64,000 bases of DNA from Georgenia satyanarayanai (GTDB lineage: Bacteria > Actinomycetota > Actinomycetes > Actinomycetales > Actinomycetaceae): positions 1 to 64,000 of the forward strand of contig NZ_VUKC01000018.1 in the NCBI RefSeq assembly GCF_009193135.1. Direction: 5' to 3'. Positions within the stretch are counted from its first letter, which is position 1. Each line of letters opens with the position of its first letter. The notes beneath the pieces were generated by a model, which did no database searches, was not told the origin of the DNA, and saw only the letters and a program-made list of their open reading frames with translations. Shown in pieces: positions 7,333 to 64,000 of the stretch. The position numbers were made by a program, and so were the translations under genes.

Positions 7333-8646
7333 TCAGCCGGTGAGGGTGACCGGCCGCACGATGTCGGCGTAGGCGAGGAGCAGGCTCATGCCCACCATCG
7401 CGATGACGACGACGTAGGTGAGGGGCAGCATCCGCGCGACGTCCACGGGGCCGGGGTCCGGGCGTCCCCGCCAGGTCGCGACCCGGCGGCGCAGGCCCTC
7501 CCACAGCGCGCCGGCGATGTGGCCGCCGTCGAGCGGGAGCAGCGGGATGAGGTTGAAGACGAACAGCGCGAGGTTGAGGGAGGCGAGCAGGCCGAGCAGG
7601 TCCGCCGTCCGTTCGACGACGCCGTAGCGCTCGCTGTCGATGGAGGCGATCTCCCCGGCGAAGCGGCCCACGCCGACGAGCCCGACGACGCCGGGGTCGC
7701 GCTCCTCCTCACCGAAGGCCGCCTGGGCGACGTCGACGAGCCGCTGCGGGAGCGTGAGGACGACGGTGACGGTCGCGCCCACCGCCTCGACGACCCTCCC
7801 GGGCACGGCGGTGACCGGCTGTGGGACGAGCTCGGCGACCGGACCGATCCCGACGAAGGGCTGCGGCTCGGTCACCGGCTCACCGGCGTCGTCGGTGCGG
7901 ACCTCGCCGTCGACGACGACGGGCCGCTCGCTCATCACGGGCGTGACCGTGACCGTGCGCTCCTGCCCGTCCCGCTCGACGACGACGGTGGCCGGGCTGG
8001 GTCCGGACGCGGCGATGGCCGCGCGCACGTCGTCCCACGACACGACCGGCCGTCCGCCCCACGACAGGACGGTGTCGCCCGGCTGGAGGCCGGCGACGGC
8101 GCCGGGAGCGGCGGGGTCGGTCCCGGCGCACTCGGTGGCCGCGGGGTCGGCCGGCAGGCACTCCTGGACGTTGCCGAGCGTGGCGGTGTAGGCGGGCACC
8201 CCCACGCCGACGAGCACGACGGAGAGGAGGACGACGGCGATGAGGAGGTTCATCACCGGCCCGCCGAGCATGACGACGAGCTTCTTCGGCACGCTGAGGG
8301 AGGAGAAGGTGCGGTGCTCCTCGCCGGGACCGACCTCCGCCAGGGCGAACTCGCGCGCCTCCTCGACGAGGGTGGCGCGCCCGTCACGACGGCGCCGCAC
8401 GGGCCGGTCCGTGCGTGCGGGCGGGTACATGCCCACCATCCGCACGTAGCCGCCGAGCGGCACGGCCTTGACGCCGTACTCGGTCTCCCCGCGCCGGCGC
8501 GACCACAGGGTGGGGCCGAACCCGACGAAGTACTCGGTGACCTTGACGCCGAAGCGCTTGGCGGGCAGGAGGTGCCCGACCTCGTGAAGGGCGATGGAGA
8601 CGACGAGCCCGACGACGAGCACGAGGACGCCGACGAGGAAACTCAT
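7333..8646 (-). CDS. rip1: Site-2 protease (RIP metalloprotease, RseP/Rip1 family)
   Basis: Integral membrane zinc protease that cleaves substrates, such as anti-sigma factors, within the membrane. The 437-residue protein has the zinc motif HEVGH (about 21-25) in the first membrane helix, a second helix after MLGGPVMNLLIAV, a central PDZ domain (GLQPGDTVLSWGGRPV), and the third zinc ligand in NLIPLLPLDGGH. The ATG at 8646 overlaps the dxr stop as ATGA, so the two are translationally coupled. Mycobacterial Rip1 controls envelope functions; that role here is inferred. Confidence 0.95.
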   Translation of the reverse strand: MSFLVGVLVLVVGLVVSIALHEVGHLLPAKRFGVKVTEYFVGFGPTLWSRRRGETEYGVKAVPLGGYVRMVGMYPPARTDRPVRRRRDGRATLVEEAREFALAEVGPGEEHRTFSSLSVPKKLVVMLGGPVMNLLIAVVLLSVVLVGVGVPAYTATLGNVQECLPADPAATECAGTDPAAPGAVAGLQPGDTVLSWGGRPVVSWDDVRAAIAASGPSPATVVVERDGQERTVTVTPVMSERPVVVDGEVRTDDAGEPVTEPQPFVGIGPVAELVPQPVTAVPGRVVEAVGATVTVVLTLPQRLVDVAQAAFGEEERDPGVVGLVGVGRFAGEIASIDSERYGVVERTADLLGLLASLNLALFVFNLIPLLPLDGGHIAGALWEGLRRRVATWRGRPDPGPVDVARMLPLTYVVVIAMVGMSLLLAYADIVRPVTLTG

Positions 8647-59329: not shown

Positions 59330-60190
59330 TCAGCGTGCCGGGGTGCTGCGCAGGTATTCCTCCAGGCCGAGGGGTCGTGAGCCGGTGATGTCGTGGACGG
59401 TGTCGGTGACTGTCGCCATGGTGCCGTCGGCGATCGCGGTGTAGGTGCTCACCCATGCGTCGACCTGCCAGTCCGGGGCGCCGTAGCCCGCGCGGGAGGC
59501 GTATGCCTCATCGAGGGTCTCGTCGTGGTACGTGACCGGGGTTCCGCGCGCCGTGGAGATGGTGGCGGCGACCTCGCCGAGGGTGAGCGCCTGGGGCCCG
59601 GTGAGGTCGTAGGTGCGGTGGGTGTGCGGAGCCGGGTCTGACAGGACGGCGGCGGCGGTGCGGGCGACGTCCGCGCGGGCGACGAACGCGCAGGCGCCGT
59701 CCCTCGCGGGGCCGCGGATGACGCCGTCGGGGCCGACGAGCGCCTCGGTGAAGTCGAGGTAGAAGCTGTCGCGTAGGAAGGTCCAGGCCATCCCGGAGGC
59801 CTTGAGGTGCTCCTCGGTGGCGTGGTGGTCGCGTGCAAGGGTGAAGGTCGCGTCCGGTGCGGCGGCGAGGAATGAGGTGTAGACGACGTGCTCGACGCCG
59901 GCTTCGGCGGCTGCGTCGATGAAGGTGCGGTGCTGCGCGAGGCGGTCTGCGCTCTCGGACGCCGAGACCATGAACAGCACCTGCACGCCGGCGAGGGCTC
60001 GTCTCGCGGCCTCCAGGTCCCTGAACTCGGCACCGGCGACCTCGGTGATGGTGGCGTGGCGGGGCGCCTTGGGGCTGGCCGGGTCACGCACGACGAGACG
60101 GTGGGGCGTCCTGGCGGTGTCGAGGAACTGAGAGACGAGGCCACCGAGGTGGCCGGTCGCACCCGTGACGGCAAGGGTCCTGGGGGTCAT
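59330..60190 (-). CDS. NmrA-like NAD(P)-dependent oxidoreductase
   Basis: A 286-residue atypical short-chain dehydrogenase of the NmrA/QOR2 type. Rossmann motif TLAVTGATGHLGGLV at the N terminus, VVYTSFLAAAPD in place of the YxxxK site, and FLRDSFYLDFTEALVG, a block shared with QOR2-like NAD(P)H:quinone oxidoreductases. A quinone or azo substrate is likely but not proven. Separated from the upstream lipoprotein gene by a hairpin. Confidence 0.88.
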   Translation of the reverse strand: MTPRTLAVTGATGHLGGLVSQFLDTARTPHRLVVRDPASPKAPRHATITEVAGAEFRDLEAARRALAGVQVLFMVSASESADRLAQHRTFIDAAAEAGVEHVVYTSFLAAAPDATFTLARDHHATEEHLKASGMAWTFLRDSFYLDFTEALVGPDGVIRGPARDGACAFVARADVARTAAAVLSDPAPHTHRTYDLTGPQALTLGEVAATISTARGTPVTYHDETLDEAYASRAGYGAPDWQVDAWVSTYTAIADGTMATVTDTVHDITGSRPLGLEEYLRSTPAR

Positions 60191-60280: not shown

Positions 60281-61186
60281 TCAGAAAGCGCCGTTGTCGT
60301 GCGGCATCTCGGCGGGGATGGGAGAGATCGCATCCCAGTGCTCGACGATCTTGCCGTCCTGGACGCGCCACAGGTCGGCGTAGATCGCCGGCCCGCCGAA
60401 GTCGCCCTCGGAGTAGGTGAAGACGAGGTCACCCTCGGCGATCACCTGGTGGACGGTGGTGTAGACGAGGTTCTTACCCTCCGCGGCCCAGGCGGCCGAG
60501 GCGGCGGCGAAGCCGTCGAGGCCGTCGGCTGCCTCGGGGTTGTGCTGGGCGTAGGAGTCGGTGGAGATGAACTCGGGCAGGGCGTCGTAGTCCTGGCCGA
60601 CGAGCACCTGCTCGGTGAACCGGGAGACGAGCTCGGCGTTGGCGTCGGTGTCGGCGGTGTCGGCGGGCTCGGTCGGGCCGTCAACCTGGCTGCGCCCGCT
60701 CGCCGTTTCCTCCACCAGCGGTGTCAGGGAGTCCCAGTGCTCGACGATCTGCTGGTCCTCGACATGGAACACGTCGAACGCAACTAGCGGCGTCTCGGCG
60801 AATCCGTAGTAGGTGCCGTGCAGCACGACGGTGTCGTCCTGGGCGATCACGCGTGCGGGCTCGTAGCGGAAGTCCGCGGGAGGCGACTGGACCATCGCGC
60901 GAAGGCCCTCGACACCGTCGGCGGCGAGCGTGGAGTGCTGGACGTAGTCGGGTGAGAAGTACTCGTCGATCGCGTCGAGGTCGCGGTCGGTGAACACGGC
61001 GGTCGCGGCGTCGACCACGAGCTCCTTCGTGGACGGTTCCTGCGCGCTCTGCTCGGTGCTCTCCTCGACGCTTTCCGGAGTCGTCTCCTCGGTCGGGGTC
61101 TGGCTCGAGCACGCGCCCAGTGCGAGCACGAGGGTGCCGGCCATGGCGAGGGCGCCGGTGGTGCGCAGGAGGGGTGGGGTCTTCAT
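60281..61186 (-). CDS. Lipoprotein with two SnoaL-like domains
   Basis: A 301-residue exported lipoprotein. Signal peptide with lipobox LGAC (lipidated Cys near residue 26), then an acidic Thr/Glu/Ser-rich linker, then two copies of a SnoaL/NTF2-like fold (about 55-160 and 185-301). Each copy ends VEHWDS or VEHWDA after a Phe/Trp-x-Val strand (DVFHVEDQQIVEHWD, DLWRVQDGKIVEHWD). SnoaL folds include cyclases and hydrolases; no catalytic set is clear. The ATG at 61186 fits the signal peptide better than the upstream TTG. Confidence 0.85.
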   Translation of the reverse strand: MKTPPLLRTTGALAMAGTLVLALGACSSQTPTEETTPESVEESTEQSAQEPSTKELVVDAATAVFTDRDLDAIDEYFSPDYVQHSTLAADGVEGLRAMVQSPPADFRYEPARVIAQDDTVVLHGTYYGFAETPLVAFDVFHVEDQQIVEHWDSLTPLVEETASGRSQVDGPTEPADTADTDANAELVSRFTEQVLVGQDYDALPEFISTDSYAQHNPEAADGLDGFAAASAAWAAEGKNLVYTTVHQVIAEGDLVFTYSEGDFGGPAIYADLWRVQDGKIVEHWDAISPIPAEMPHDNGAF

Positions 61187-61243: not shown

Positions 61244-61888
61244 TCAGTACGCGACGGAGAAGCGCTGGCGCCGGTGGGCGGGGCGCTCGATCTCGTCGAC
61301 GAACGCCTGGGCGTAGTCGGCGCCGGAGATGGTGGAGTTGCCCTCGTCGTCGACCAGGAGCAGGTCACCACCGAGCCGGAAGGTGCCGGTGTGCTCGCCG
61401 GCGGCCCAGGCGCCGAAGCCACCGGCCGGGCTGAGGTAGAACCAGTCGAGGGCCGCGTCCGAGGCGTGCAGGTCGTCCAGGATCGCGGCCATCTCGGCGG
61501 CCTCGGGCTTGAAGGCGTCAGGGAAGCCGTCGGTCTCGGCCACCGTCGGGCCGCCGGGGGCGACGAGGAGCGAACCTGCTCCGCCCACGACACCGAGGCG
61601 AGCACCGGCCGCCTGCGCCGCGGCGGTGAGCTCGCGCACGACGCCGACGAGCTTGCCCTCGAGCGTGCCGCGCGGGGACAGCGCCGCGACGACGACGTCC
61701 GCGCCCGCCGCGGCACGCTGTACGACGGCCGGGTCGAGCACGTCACCGCTGATGTAGGTAACCCCGTCGATCGTCTCGGCGGGGACGGTCCGCGCGATCG
61801 CGGTGACCTGGTGACCGCGCGAGGCGGCCTCGCGGACGATGTTGCTCCCGGCGTACCCGGTGCCGCCGACCACGGTGATGCGAGCCAT
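61244..61888 (-). CDS. NAD(P)-binding oxidoreductase (atypical SDR)
   Basis: A 214-residue Rossmann protein with MARITVVGGTGYAGSNIV, the charged RGHQVTAIAR segment, GADVVVAALSPRG, LGVVGGAGSLLVAPGG and DYAQAFVDEIERPAH near the end. This is the pattern of BlvR/YwnB-type NAD(P)-binding proteins often controlled by HxlR regulators. It is divergent from the HxlR gene, with a palindrome in the shared promoter region. Confidence 0.88.
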   Translation of the reverse strand: MARITVVGGTGYAGSNIVREAASRGHQVTAIARTVPAETIDGVTYISGDVLDPAVVQRAAAGADVVVAALSPRGTLEGKLVGVVRELTAAAQAAGARLGVVGGAGSLLVAPGGPTVAETDGFPDAFKPEAAEMAAILDDLHASDAALDWFYLSPAGGFGAWAAGEHTGTFRLGGDLLLVDDEGNSTISGADYAQAFVDEIERPAHRRQRFSVAY

Positions 61889-61934
61889 GTCGATCTTCCT
61901 CTCGTTCAGGGGCTTCCTTCCGAAGTCGCTGTCA

Positions 61935-61945
61935 CTTACCGTAAG
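61935..61945. promoter_or_regulatory. Palindrome in the HxlR divergent region
   Basis: CTTACCGTAAG is a perfect 5-1-5 palindrome in the intergenic region between the SDR gene and hxlR; related half-sites GGTAAC and GGTAAG follow at 61980-61985 and 61999-62004. On the minus strand it directly follows a TTGACT (61954-61949) that could be the SDR gene's -35. Probable HxlR operator. Confidence 0.55.
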
Positions 61946-62017
61946 AGAGTCAAGACGGACTGGGTAGTAGGCACGTTCCGGTAACTATGTGCCCAACTGG
62001 TAAGCATGGAGGTAGGG

Positions 62018-62389
62018 ATGTCCGAACCACAGTGGGATCCGTATGACCGCAACTGCCCCACGCGGGCACTGCTGGACCGCATTGGCGACCGGTGGACGGT
62101 GCTCGTCGTCGGTGCGCTCAGCGAGGGCCCGATGCGTTTCGGGGAGATCGCCAGGCGCATCGACGGCGTCTCGCAGAAGATGCTGACCCAGACGCTGCGC
62201 GGGCTCGAGCGCGACGGACTGGTCACGCGCACGATGTACCCGCAGATTCCCCCGCGCGTGGAGTACGAGCTGACCGAGGCCGGCCGCACGCTGCGCGAAC
62301 CGCTCGCAGCCCTGGAGACCTGGGCCAAGACGCACATGGCCACGGTCCTCGCGGCCCGTGAGCTGGCCGACGCCGGGACGGGGTCGTGA
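62018..62389 (+). CDS. HxlR family transcriptional regulator
   Basis: A 123-residue winged-helix regulator: RALLDRIGDRWTVLVVGALS, MRFGEIARRIDGVSQKMLTQ, LRGLERDGLVTRTMYPQIPP, VEYELTEAGRTLREPL. A single Cys at 13 (RNCPTR) lies where HxlR-type redox and quinone sensors (YodB, QorR) have their reactive thiol. The ATG at 62018 has GGAGGTAGGG upstream. Its stop overlaps the macrodomain start (GTGA), so it heads that operon. Confidence 0.93.
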   Translation: MSEPQWDPYDRNCPTRALLDRIGDRWTVLVVGALSEGPMRFGEIARRIDGVSQKMLTQTLRGLERDGLVTRTMYPQIPPRVEYELTEAGRTLREPLAALETWAKTHMATVLAARELADAGTGS

Positions 62390-63192
62390 CCGCCCCGCTC
62401 GCCGAGCTGGTCGAGCACTTCGCCGCCGAGCGTGGGCAGGACGTCACCGGTGTATCGCCGTCCCGGCACCGCGCACTGCTCGCCGCACTGCTCACCACCC
62501 GGCCGCCTGAGCCTGTGCCGGCCCCGGTCGCCGCCGCGCTCGACGACCTGCTCGCCCGCGAGGCCGGTGCACGCGAGACCGTCTCGGCCGCCGATCTGGC
62601 ACGCGTCGGTGACCAGGTGCCCGGTCTGACGGGTCCTCTCGCCAGGACCAGCGTGTGGCAGGGCGACATCACGACCCTGGTCGTCGACGCGATCGTGAAC
62701 GCCGCCAACGCCCAGCTCCTGGGCTGCTTCGTCCCCGAGCACCGCTGCATCGACAACGTCATCCACGCGGTCGCAGGGCCCGCGCTGCGCGCCGAGTGCG
62801 CCGAACTCATGCAGGCACAGGGACACCCCGAACCGACCGGGCACGCGAAGATCACCGGCGGGTACCACCTGCCCGCCCGGTGGGTCGTGCACACCGTCGG
62901 CCCGATCGTGCCCGACCACCAGCCCACCATCGAGCACGCCAGCTTGCTCGCGTCCGCCTACCGGGCCTGCCTGCAGGCCGCGCACGACGCAGGAGCCGCG
63001 TCCCTCGCCTTCTGTGGAATCTCCACCGGCGTGTTCGGCTACCCGGTCGAGCTGGCTGCACCCGTCGCGCTCCACGCCGTCGAGGCCTGGCTCACTGAGC
63101 ACCCTGAGACGGACCTGCACGTCGTGTTCAACACCTTCTCCTCGCGCGACACCGACGCCTACCTCACGACCCTCGCGGAGCGCCACCGATGA
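62386..63192 (+). CDS. Zinc-containing macrodomain protein, ADP-ribosyl hydrolase
   Basis: A 268-residue protein with a helical N-terminal extension (1-85) and a macrodomain (88-268). Key features: WQGDITTLVVDAIVNAANAQ (ADP-ribose-binding NAAN), then LLGCFVPEHRCIDNVIHAVA, whose Cys114, His119 and Cys121 form the zinc site of the Zn-macro class, and ISTGVFGYPVELA (diphosphate loop). Zn-macrodomains linked to SirTM remove ADP-ribose that SirTM attaches. GTG start; its stop overlaps the SirTM start. Confidence 0.92.
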   Translation: MTAPLAELVEHFAAERGQDVTGVSPSRHRALLAALLTTRPPEPVPAPVAAALDDLLAREAGARETVSAADLARVGDQVPGLTGPLARTSVWQGDITTLVVDAIVNAANAQLLGCFVPEHRCIDNVIHAVAGPALRAECAELMQAQGHPEPTGHAKITGGYHLPARWVVHTVGPIVPDHQPTIEHASLLASAYRACLQAAHDAGAASLAFCGISTGVFGYPVELAAPVALHAVEAWLTEHPETDLHVVFNTFSSRDTDAYLTTLAERHR

Positions 63193-64000
63193 ACCACCAC
63201 CATCACCGCCAGGGGCTCGTACCTGGCAAGGCAACGCTCGATGACGCGCTCACCTGGATCCGCGACGCCGACGCCGTCCTGCTCACCGCAGGCGCCGGCC
63301 TGTCCTCCGCCGCCGGCTACGACTACGGCGACACCTGGCGCTTCGCCGAGCTCTTCCCCGCGCTGCACGCCCTCGGGTTCCGCGCTCGTTACGAGCTCAT
63401 CGGCGCATCCCTGCCGGCGACGCACCTGTGGGGTTTTTGGGCCGTGCACACGAGCGACATCCGCTTCAACCCCGAGCCCAACCCGCTCTACCAACGCCTG
63501 CGTGAGGTCGTCGGCGACCGCGACCACTTCGTCATGACGTCCAACGTCGACGCCCTCTTCACACGCAACGGCTTCGACCCCGAGCACGTGTTCACCCCGC
63601 AGGGGGACTACGGCCTCTACCAGTGCAAGACCCCCTGCACCCGTCAGGTCTGGGACTCACGACCGGTCATCGAACGAGCCCTCACCAGCTACGACCCGAC
63701 CACCGGCGGCGTCGATCCCGAGCACGTCCCCCTGTGCCCGAACTGCGGCGGGGAGACCTACCTCAACGTCAACACCGGCGCCAACTACATCGCCGACCAC
63801 TTCGCCTCCACCGGCAACGCGCTCAACACCTGGCTCGTGGGCCACCGCGACACCGACCTCCTCATCCTCGAGATCGGCGCCGGCTTCAACACCCCCGGAG
63901 TCATCCGTCTCCCCGACGAGCACCTCACCCGACACCTCCCGCGCGCCCGCCTCGTGCGCGCCAACCCCCAGGCCGCTGACGTCCCGAGCGATATCGCCGC
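63189..64000 (+). CDS. Class M sirtuin (SirTM), protein ADP-ribosyltransferase, cut by window edge
   Basis: At least 270 codons are open to the edge. It is a Sir2 fold with the NAD loop TAGAGLSSAAGYDYGD (GAGLSS 35-40), TSNVD with N119 and D121, zinc cysteines 146, 150, 183 and 186 (CKTPC, CPNC), and GAGFNTPGVIRLP. The canonical deacetylase His is replaced by Gln138 in TPQGDYGLYQ, almost the same numbering as the Asn118/Asp120/Gln137 set of streptococcal SirTM. Such enzymes ADP-ribosylate lipoylated GcvH-L. ATGA overlap with the macrodomain gene. Confidence 0.92.
   Translation, partial: MNHHHHRQGLVPGKATLDDALTWIRDADAVLLTAGAGLSSAAGYDYGDTWRFAELFPALHALGFRARYELIGASLPATHLWGFWAVHTSDIRFNPEPNPLYQRLREVVGDRDHFVMTSNVDALFTRNGFDPEHVFTPQGDYGLYQCKTPCTRQVWDSRPVIERALTSYDPTTGGVDPEHVPLCPNCGGETYLNVNTGANYIADHFASTGNALNTWLVGHRDTDLLILEIGAGFNTPGVIRLPDEHLTRHLPRARLVRANPQAADVPSDIA

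Follow-up and report, generated by a model that had tools for sequence, protein, structure and literature searches.

We analysed a stretch of 64,000 nucleotides from Georgenia satyanarayanai (contig NZ_VUKC01000018.1, positions 1 to 64,000; hereafter the window), which ends in an operon for a presumed reversible ADP-ribosylation system beside reductase-like genes. Three plus-strand genes at 62018–64000 are arranged in the order HxlR, Zn-macro, SirTM and code for a regulator, a zinc macrodomain protein, and a class M type sirtuin. The first gene (62018..62389, + strand, 123 aa) encodes an HxlR/DUF24-type winged-helix regulator (PF01638, E = 2.3e-31). It starts with ATG at 62018, and a GGAGG sequence begins 10 bases upstream. 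The closest match in the PDB is 1yyv (E = 2.4e-27), which we take to be YtfH. The only cysteine, C13, is N-terminal, and both the PF01638 domain and the N-terminal Cys of HxlR/DUF24 regulators are therefore present. Consecutive genes overlap by GTGA (HxlR/Zn-macro) and ATGA (Zn-macro/SirTM), with the following gene in frame in both cases. A first-pass annotation of the sequence had proposed three genes coupled in this way and a regulator with one N-terminal Cys, and both proposals hold. By analogy with its family, C13 may sense electrophiles: DUF24 regulators such as YodB answer quinones, diamide, and other electrophiles via a redox-active Cys (PMC10458429). An anti-phage defence system was considered and rejected, as PADLOC gave no match for five of six proteins and a weak Csa3 match for HxlR (E = 0.00032).

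The second gene (62386..63192, + strand, 268 aa; PF01661, E = 2.8e-34) codes for a Zn-macro protein-ADP-ribose hydrolase, the presumed eraser. It matches NF003163 ("protein-ADP-ribose hydrolase") at 288.2 bits against a cut-off of 272 bits, and PDB entries 8rsm (E = 2.2e-52) and 8rsi (E = 4.8e-52). The protein contains the zinc loop CFVPEHRC (Cx4HxC, from C114), NAAN (N105), and DNVIH (Dx3H, from D123), features given for Zn-macros in PMC11490716. Its N-terminal extension aligns with 8rsi from residue 8, which completes the features of zinc macrodomains. The first-pass identification of a Zn-macrodomain eraser is upheld by the NF003163 and PDB matches and the zinc loop, with hydrolase activity presumed. 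Zn-macros are described as the only known hydrolase type that cleaves cysteine-linked ADP-ribose (PMC11490716). A second DNA match in the same genome, on another contig (L006, ~7800–8298), was set aside as an ordinary macrodomain in which a GGGG loop replaces the zinc loop. At two loci from the survey described below (L040 and L049), the Zn-macro lies in two frames beside SirTM, a possible frameshift or assembly error.

The third gene (63189..64000, + strand) codes for SirTM, a presumed ADP-ribosyltransferase of 296 aa that is open at the window end; its stop codon lies further on and ends at position 64079 of the contig. The sole PDB matches at E 0.001 are 8rsn (E = 3.6e-37) and 5a3a (E = 7.1e-28). 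An AlphaFold2 model of residues 1–270 (last 26 omitted) had a predicted local distance difference test (pLDDT) score of 77.5 for the best of five models and 41.7–61.9 for the others, and its top Foldseek matches were SpySirTM (5a3a) and Foc Mfs1 (8rsn). Residues N119, D121, and Q138 align with N118, D120, and Q137 of SpySirTM (residues from PMC4518038). In the alignment with SpySirTM and Foc Mfs1, QG replaces HG, with Q138 in the place of the catalytic His. The first-pass annotation had called a class M sirtuin with Asn119, Asp121, and Gln138 replacing the deacetylase His, and the alignment indeed has Gln and no canonical His. Pfam at E 0.01 returned no family for SirTM and NCBIfam returned a deacylase match below threshold only, so automated pipelines may overlook or mislabel the protein. 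The N-terminus, MNHHHHRQ (63189–63212), has a native stretch of histidines that could pass for a purification tag.

Two positions set this protein apart from described SirTMs. Arg192 is conserved and needed in SpySirTM, where its mutation strongly lowers activity (PMC4518038); the aligned residue in the window protein is Asn195, a point absent from the first-pass annotation. The motif GVGx[NT]TP, termed class-specific in PMC4518038, reads GAGFNTP, with one substitution. In a tree of SirTMs, the window protein belongs to a clade of 13 loci (the window, L038–L045, and L099–L102). The Arg192 position in this clade is occupied by Tyr (5), Phe (1), Asn (2), His (1, L042), or Arg (4; L041, L045, L101, and L102), with Tyr, Phe, or Asn in the window, L038–L040, L043, L044, L099, and L100 (8 of 13). 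Arg is found in all 24 aligned rows of a second clade and in Foc Mfs1; the residue table omits L068 and the fragments L070–L073. With the Arg192 equivalent missing and GAGFNTP in the motif, the window protein is classed by its sequence as part of a deviating SirTM subclade, placed with SirTM by QG, by its genetic linkage to Zn-macro (the 4-base overlap at 63189), and by its predicted fold. Asn195 and the substitutions in 8 of the 13 clade members would fit a protein that lacks transferase activity and serves as an NAD+/ADP-ribose binding partner or NADase, with Zn-macro as the working enzyme. Set against this, Asn119, Asp121, Gln138, and four zinc-type Cys are invariant in eight aligned clade proteins, which suggests that catalysis is retained. 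Residues 195–203 are also poorly predicted (pLDDT <50) and the model is unreliable there, so another residue could take over the role of Arg192. We regard a SirTM that has lost transferase activity as highly improbable.

Three minus-strand genes lie to the left of HxlR and diverge from it. NmrA1 (61244..61888) is NAD(P)H-binding and reductase-like (PF13460, E = 3.8e-19; PDB 4jgb, E = 8.5e-41). The SnoaL-like (SnoaL_2) protein (60281..61186; PF12680, E = 2.2e-25, in two stretches) has an N-terminal signal-like stretch and a lipobox-like LGAC, both seen by eye, and is a putative lipoprotein. NmrA2 (59330..60190) is an NmrA-family reductase-like protein (PF05368, E = 8.6e-23) whose best PDB match is 2zcu (E = 1.1e-32). 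YtfG, the protein named by 2zcu, belongs to the ytfH/ytfG gene pair of Escherichia coli, in which an N-terminal-Cys regulator likewise diverges from a gene of the NAD(P)H-dependent reductase type. The divergent reductase genes reported in the first-pass annotation thus proved to be two NmrA/NAD(P)H-binding proteins accompanied by a SnoaL-like protein. YodB, CatR, and HypR have the same type of arrangement (PMC10458429); unlike these and ytfH/ytfG, the presumed regulon here adds an ADP-ribosylation writer and eraser. A relative of NmrA1 at E 1e-15 occurs in just one of five genus mates, with 35% identity, so NmrA1 and the SirTM/Zn-macro pair were probably gained together. To the right of SirTM, on the opposite strand, are a GntR regulator and a protein that has no Pfam match and looks hydrophobic by eye; the contig runs to 66732, 2.65 kb beyond SirTM.

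The 129-base divergent region between NmrA1 and HxlR (61889–62017) contains two operator-like sites, both found by comparing upstream regions by eye. Sequences similar to site 1 (CTTACCGTAAGAGAGTCA; 61935..61952, + strand) occur upstream of the SirTM-linked HxlRs of L038, L039, L044, and L099, and sequences similar to site 2 (AGTAGGCACGTTCCGGTAAC; 61966..61985, + strand) occur upstream of HxlR relatives that are unlinked to SirTM, most clearly in L146 and L151 (all by eye). Using patterns from these relatives, picked by eye from regions viewed alongside the window's own, site 1 has one match in the window at ≤2 mismatches (0.00 expected), and site 2 has one match in the window (0.00 expected) that is also the sole match in the genome at ≤3 mismatches. 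Promoter elements could account for part of this conservation; a promoter and terminator scan returned nothing above chance.

We searched for SirTM and its gene context in other Actinomycetes. At E 0.001, one of the six genus genomes had a match, as did 31 of 213 family genomes, 8 of 396 in an order sample, and 21 of 394 in a class sample, where each count includes the window's own genome and the class count includes canonical Sir2 proteins with HG. Seven named relatives share 56–64% identity and come from Propionibacterium and Brooklawnia (both metagenome-assembled genomes), Brevibacterium, Umezawaea, Actinoplanes, Pseudopropionibacterium, and Microbacterium. Context was surveyed over ~8 kb on each side, where the contig allowed, for 29 family and 17 order or class matches; weak class matches (G607, G710, G732, G740, G763, and G805), order matches G476 and G495, and family match G113 were left out. 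The f36 and f58 class-sample matches were rejected as SirTM, as the aligned ones are canonical Sir2 proteins with HG (nine loci), and were used as controls; L108, L111, and L114 had no SirTM match at a later threshold and were dropped before this count. The 42 SirTM-like loci include the fragments L070–L073, which the SirTM tree leaves out. Neighbours were counted within 5 kb, by homology in open frames. Zn-macro accompanies SirTM in 32 of the 42 loci, and among these 32 there are 13 with HxlR, 11 with NmrA1 or NmrA2, 11 with SnoaL, and 20 with any of the three. None of the three was found at the 10 SirTM-like loci without Zn-macro or at the nine canonical Sir2 loci.

Gene order varies within and between the two clades. 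HxlR is directly upstream of Zn-macro in 6 of the 13 window-clade loci (window, L038, L039, L044, L045, and L099), and in these six both the HxlR/Zn-macro and the Zn-macro/SirTM junctions are 4-base overlaps. NmrA2 comes directly after SirTM at four loci, overlapping it by 4 bases in L038, L041, and L099 and by 1 base in L044. A divergent AraC-type gene is found in L041, L042, L101, and L102 (by Pfam on L042, by clustering in the others), and a two-component system precedes the L043 pair. In the second clade, HxlR, divergent NmrA1, Zn-macro, and SirTM occur together in L056, L072 (a SirTM fragment), and L115, and HxlR, divergent NmrA1, and then SirTM in L055. HxlR occurs with SnoaL in L059 and L068 and is divergent from Zn-macro in L049. 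PadR and a zinc-dehydrogenase-type (quinone-reductase-like) gene lie upstream of SirTM in L046, and a Flavodoxin_2 gene lies downstream in L058 and, after an intervening gene, in L060 (Pfam on L058 only). On the SirTM tree, in which nine forks are weakly supported, at least 8 changes are needed for HxlR, 7 for NmrA, and 8 for SnoaL, which suggests repeated gain and loss of these partners. The first-pass annotation allowed that homologues without conserved HxlR linkage would refute its reading. Linkage is frequent in the window clade but not universal, with AraC-type, two-component, or no recognised regulators at the other loci, so this objection applies in part.

Several surveyed loci have features of their own. 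In Actinoplanes rectilineatus (L042:5983-7376), a NADAR gene (PF08719, E = 1.2e-52) lies ~40 bases downstream of Zn-macro/SirTM and is a possible third ADP-ribose-handling enzyme of that operon. Five QG SirTMs (L061, L063, L064, L066, and L069) have no Zn-macro within 5 kb, a writer without an eraser, and their conserved neighbours are a methylguanine-DNA methyltransferase-like protein, an alpha/beta hydrolase, an ABC/FtsX transporter, a glycosidase, and DJ-1/PfpI (Pfam, one representative each). In L056 (G011:C1:466834-472932), a single NmrA1-Macro-SirTM operon lies between two HxlR genes that belong to different lineages. In the class sample, EAD1/EAD2 effector-associated domains adjoin a canonical Sir2 (L106:6271-6900), an arrangement that resembles a signalling or conflict system.

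HxlR genes near SirTM are more numerous than their density predicts. Of the 35 other SirTM-positive genomes, 31 were searched (G018, G046, G084, and G113 were left out), and 10 of their 77 HxlR matches at E 1e-10 lie within 5 kb of SirTM, with 0.23 expected; one of the ten (G421) has an internal stop codon. The tie of the SirTM locus to HxlR and reductases, first proposed from the window, is supported beyond chance density for HxlR and NmrA reductases. A tree of 45 HxlRs places the 14 linked ones in three parts. One contains the window HxlR and that of L049, whose SirTM is of the second clade, and the forks there are not resolved; another consists of six that group apart with support; and in the third, two fall among HxlRs that otherwise pair with NmrA1. 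A member of the second group, searched against 213 family genomes at E 1e-25, had matches in six; five of these are at a SirTM locus, and the sixth adjoins NmrA1 and a gene that looks quinone-reductase-like by eye. Relatives of the window HxlR in the class sample (E 1e-44, 62–73% identity) lie beside NmrA1- or NmrA2-like genes at all 10 unlinked loci, and unlinked HxlR loci of SirTM-positive genomes lie beside NmrA in 9 of 21 cases, often divergently. None of the 31 unlinked HxlR loci adjoins Zn-macro or SirTM. This distribution suggests that the writer/eraser pair was recruited into an existing reductase regulon, in which reductase control would be the older job of the window HxlR line and the pair a later addition.

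Similar neighbourhoods were identified outside the Actinomycetes. Among plasmid records, 36 had a SirTM match and the eight with a strong Zn-macro match were read. The Streptomyces locus has a SnoaL neighbour. The others are from Vibrio (Flavodoxin_2, DUF1330, and LysR), Roseburia (a nitroreductase, and HxlR ~3 kb upstream), Niallia (Rrf2, Flavodoxin_2, and NmrA1), Subdoligranulum (HxlR, with Rrf2- and nitroreductase-like frames by eye), Treponema saccharophilum (NmrA1 and Rrf2), Enterococcus casseliflavus (Rrf2 and NmrA2, and HxlR ~2 kb downstream), and Aerococcus (the classical OYE/LLM/lipoyl-carrier/lipoate-ligase operon). An oxidoreductase gene is nearby in all seven non-actinobacterial plasmid loci, in one case by eye only, a raw count that has no null comparison. 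A phage search returned one unannotated Staphylococcus record. That such neighbourhoods are shared by distant bacteria points to a role in chemical-stress defence.

One of the closest known relatives of this locus is the extended operon of Staphylococcus and Streptococcus, which comprises OYE, LLM, GcvH-L, Zn-macro, SirTM, and LplA2 (PMC4518038, PMC11490716). Both have SirTM and Zn-macro near oxidoreductases and a link to oxidative stress; the locus described here differs in the absence of GcvH-L and LplA2, NmrA reductases in place of OYE and LLM, HxlR at the head of the operon, and the absence of Arg192. Like the Enterococcus faecalis and Treponema pedis pairs, described as lone SirTM/Zn-macro pairs (PMC11490716), and the minimal pair operon of Methanobrevibacter, it has Zn-macro and SirTM without GcvH-L. 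Unlike lone pairs, the pairs here and in the congeneric species E. casseliflavus and T. saccharophilum adjoin NmrA-type genes and HxlR or Rrf2. PMC11490716 describes as elusive what SirTM/Zn-macro systems target, and what they do, outside the lipoyl operon. Within the literature library searched, no paper joined SirTM with HxlR, a macrodomain with HxlR, or protein-ADP-ribose hydrolase with NmrA, and none matched at least five of six terms for the gene neighbourhood; the terms HxlR, NmrA, Actinobact, and Actinomyc are absent from the main text of PMC4518038 and PMC11490716.

The first-pass annotation had connected the locus to lipoyl-protein modification and suggested reading past 64000 for gcvH-L or lipoate ligase. 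Neither was found up to the contig end at 66732, where Pfam and gene reading recognised no lipoyl-related gene in the 2.65 kb beyond SirTM, and GcvH-L and LplA2, the marks of the extended operon, are both missing over this span (LplA was not searched genome-wide). SirTM could nonetheless modify lipoylated GcvH or E2 encoded elsewhere, with HxlR adding redox control. Lipoylated GcvH-L is the sole known SirTM substrate (PMC11490716), the genome has one GcvH match, and the Aerococcus plasmid shows that the lipoyl operon type exists among relatives. That GcvH match lies away from the SirTM locus, and no lipoyl gene was recognised at the locus itself, with lipoate ligase and E2 not searched genome-wide, or in the other 12 window-clade maps, where most neighbours are unannotated. 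The pair-type Zn-macro tested in PMC11490716 did not remove the modification from GcvH-L. On these grounds the lipoyl link proposed earlier is not supported, and we consider a lipoyl-linked system quite unlikely.

We favour, with a probability of roughly 57%, a mobile stress-response module in which an HxlR-controlled regulon of NAD(P)H reductases has recruited a reversible ADP-ribosylation pair. In this model, HxlR would occupy the divergent promoter region between NmrA1 and itself, and an electrophile, quinone, or oxidant reacting with Cys13 would alter its DNA binding. Both arms would then be switched on jointly, NmrA1-SnoaL-NmrA2 for reduction or detoxification and HxlR-ZnMacro-SirTM for modification, as the shared promoter region makes one thiol-based switch for the reductases and the pair likely. 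SirTM would use NAD+ to ADP-ribosylate a client protein and Zn-macro would remove the mark, such that one signal sets both reductase capacity and the state of the client. Rather than GcvH-L, the protein modified is probably one of the module's redox enzymes or its partner. Because the SnoaL-like protein looks exported, it is unlikely to be a direct client, a point against the model, and the NmrA proteins are better candidates.

Other observations also weigh against a recruited module. Within 5 kb, 12 of the 32 SirTM+Zn-macro loci have no HxlR, NmrA, or SnoaL, and 7 of the 13 window-clade loci lack HxlR, with L040, L042, L043, and L100 lacking all three partners. A single genus supplies nine of the 10 loci that lack Zn-macro, and four SnoaL cases (L047, L050, L051, and L054) are one syntenic convergent gene in one genus; counting this arrangement once leaves SnoaL at 8 and any partner at 17 of 29 loci. 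The Poisson probability for the HxlR density (9e-14) ignores relatedness. Since HxlR-NmrA pairs are frequent in their own right, the partner genes do not count as independent tokens. No NmrA lies within 1.5 kb at 12 of the 21 unlinked HxlR loci of SirTM-positive genomes, and eight of these 12 (L119–L126) have 60–64% identity to the window HxlR, so an older reductase role is not the rule for all HxlR relatives. These eight are from one genus of the family, and no NmrA, SnoaL, or SirTM was detected in their 1.5-kb flanks. Asn195 in place of Arg192 could also mean lowered or altered activity.

Some of these observations would also suit a self-contained mobile SirTM/Zn-macro cassette sitting behind handy stress promoters, with HxlR, NmrA, and SnoaL as functionally unlinked bystanders. 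Its patchy distribution in the genus and family, the variety of regulators among loci (HxlR, AraC, two-component, PadR, and Rrf2), the existence of HxlR-NmrA pairs without SirTM, and the 12 loci with none of the three partners are as expected for such a passenger. It accounts less well for the recurrence of the same few partner families in both deep SirTM clades and in various gene orders, for the oxidoreductases that recur in other phyla, and for NmrA1, probably gained with the pair. We judge a passenger cassette unlikely.

For SirTM systems outside the lipoyl operon, the recurrent context of reductases and redox-type regulators narrows the candidate clients to a few and suggests an inducing signal, and their role becomes directly testable with purified proteins. 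A broader proposal, to which we give very little weight, is that SirTM/Zn-macro pairs in bacteria at large act as the post-translational branch of stress regulons built on NAD(P)H reductases, with a client inside the module, either a reductase or the sensing Cys of an HxlR-type regulator, which SirTM would ADP-ribosylate and Zn-macro would release. If the client does lie inside the module, the NAD+/NADPH state would feed back on the gene switch.

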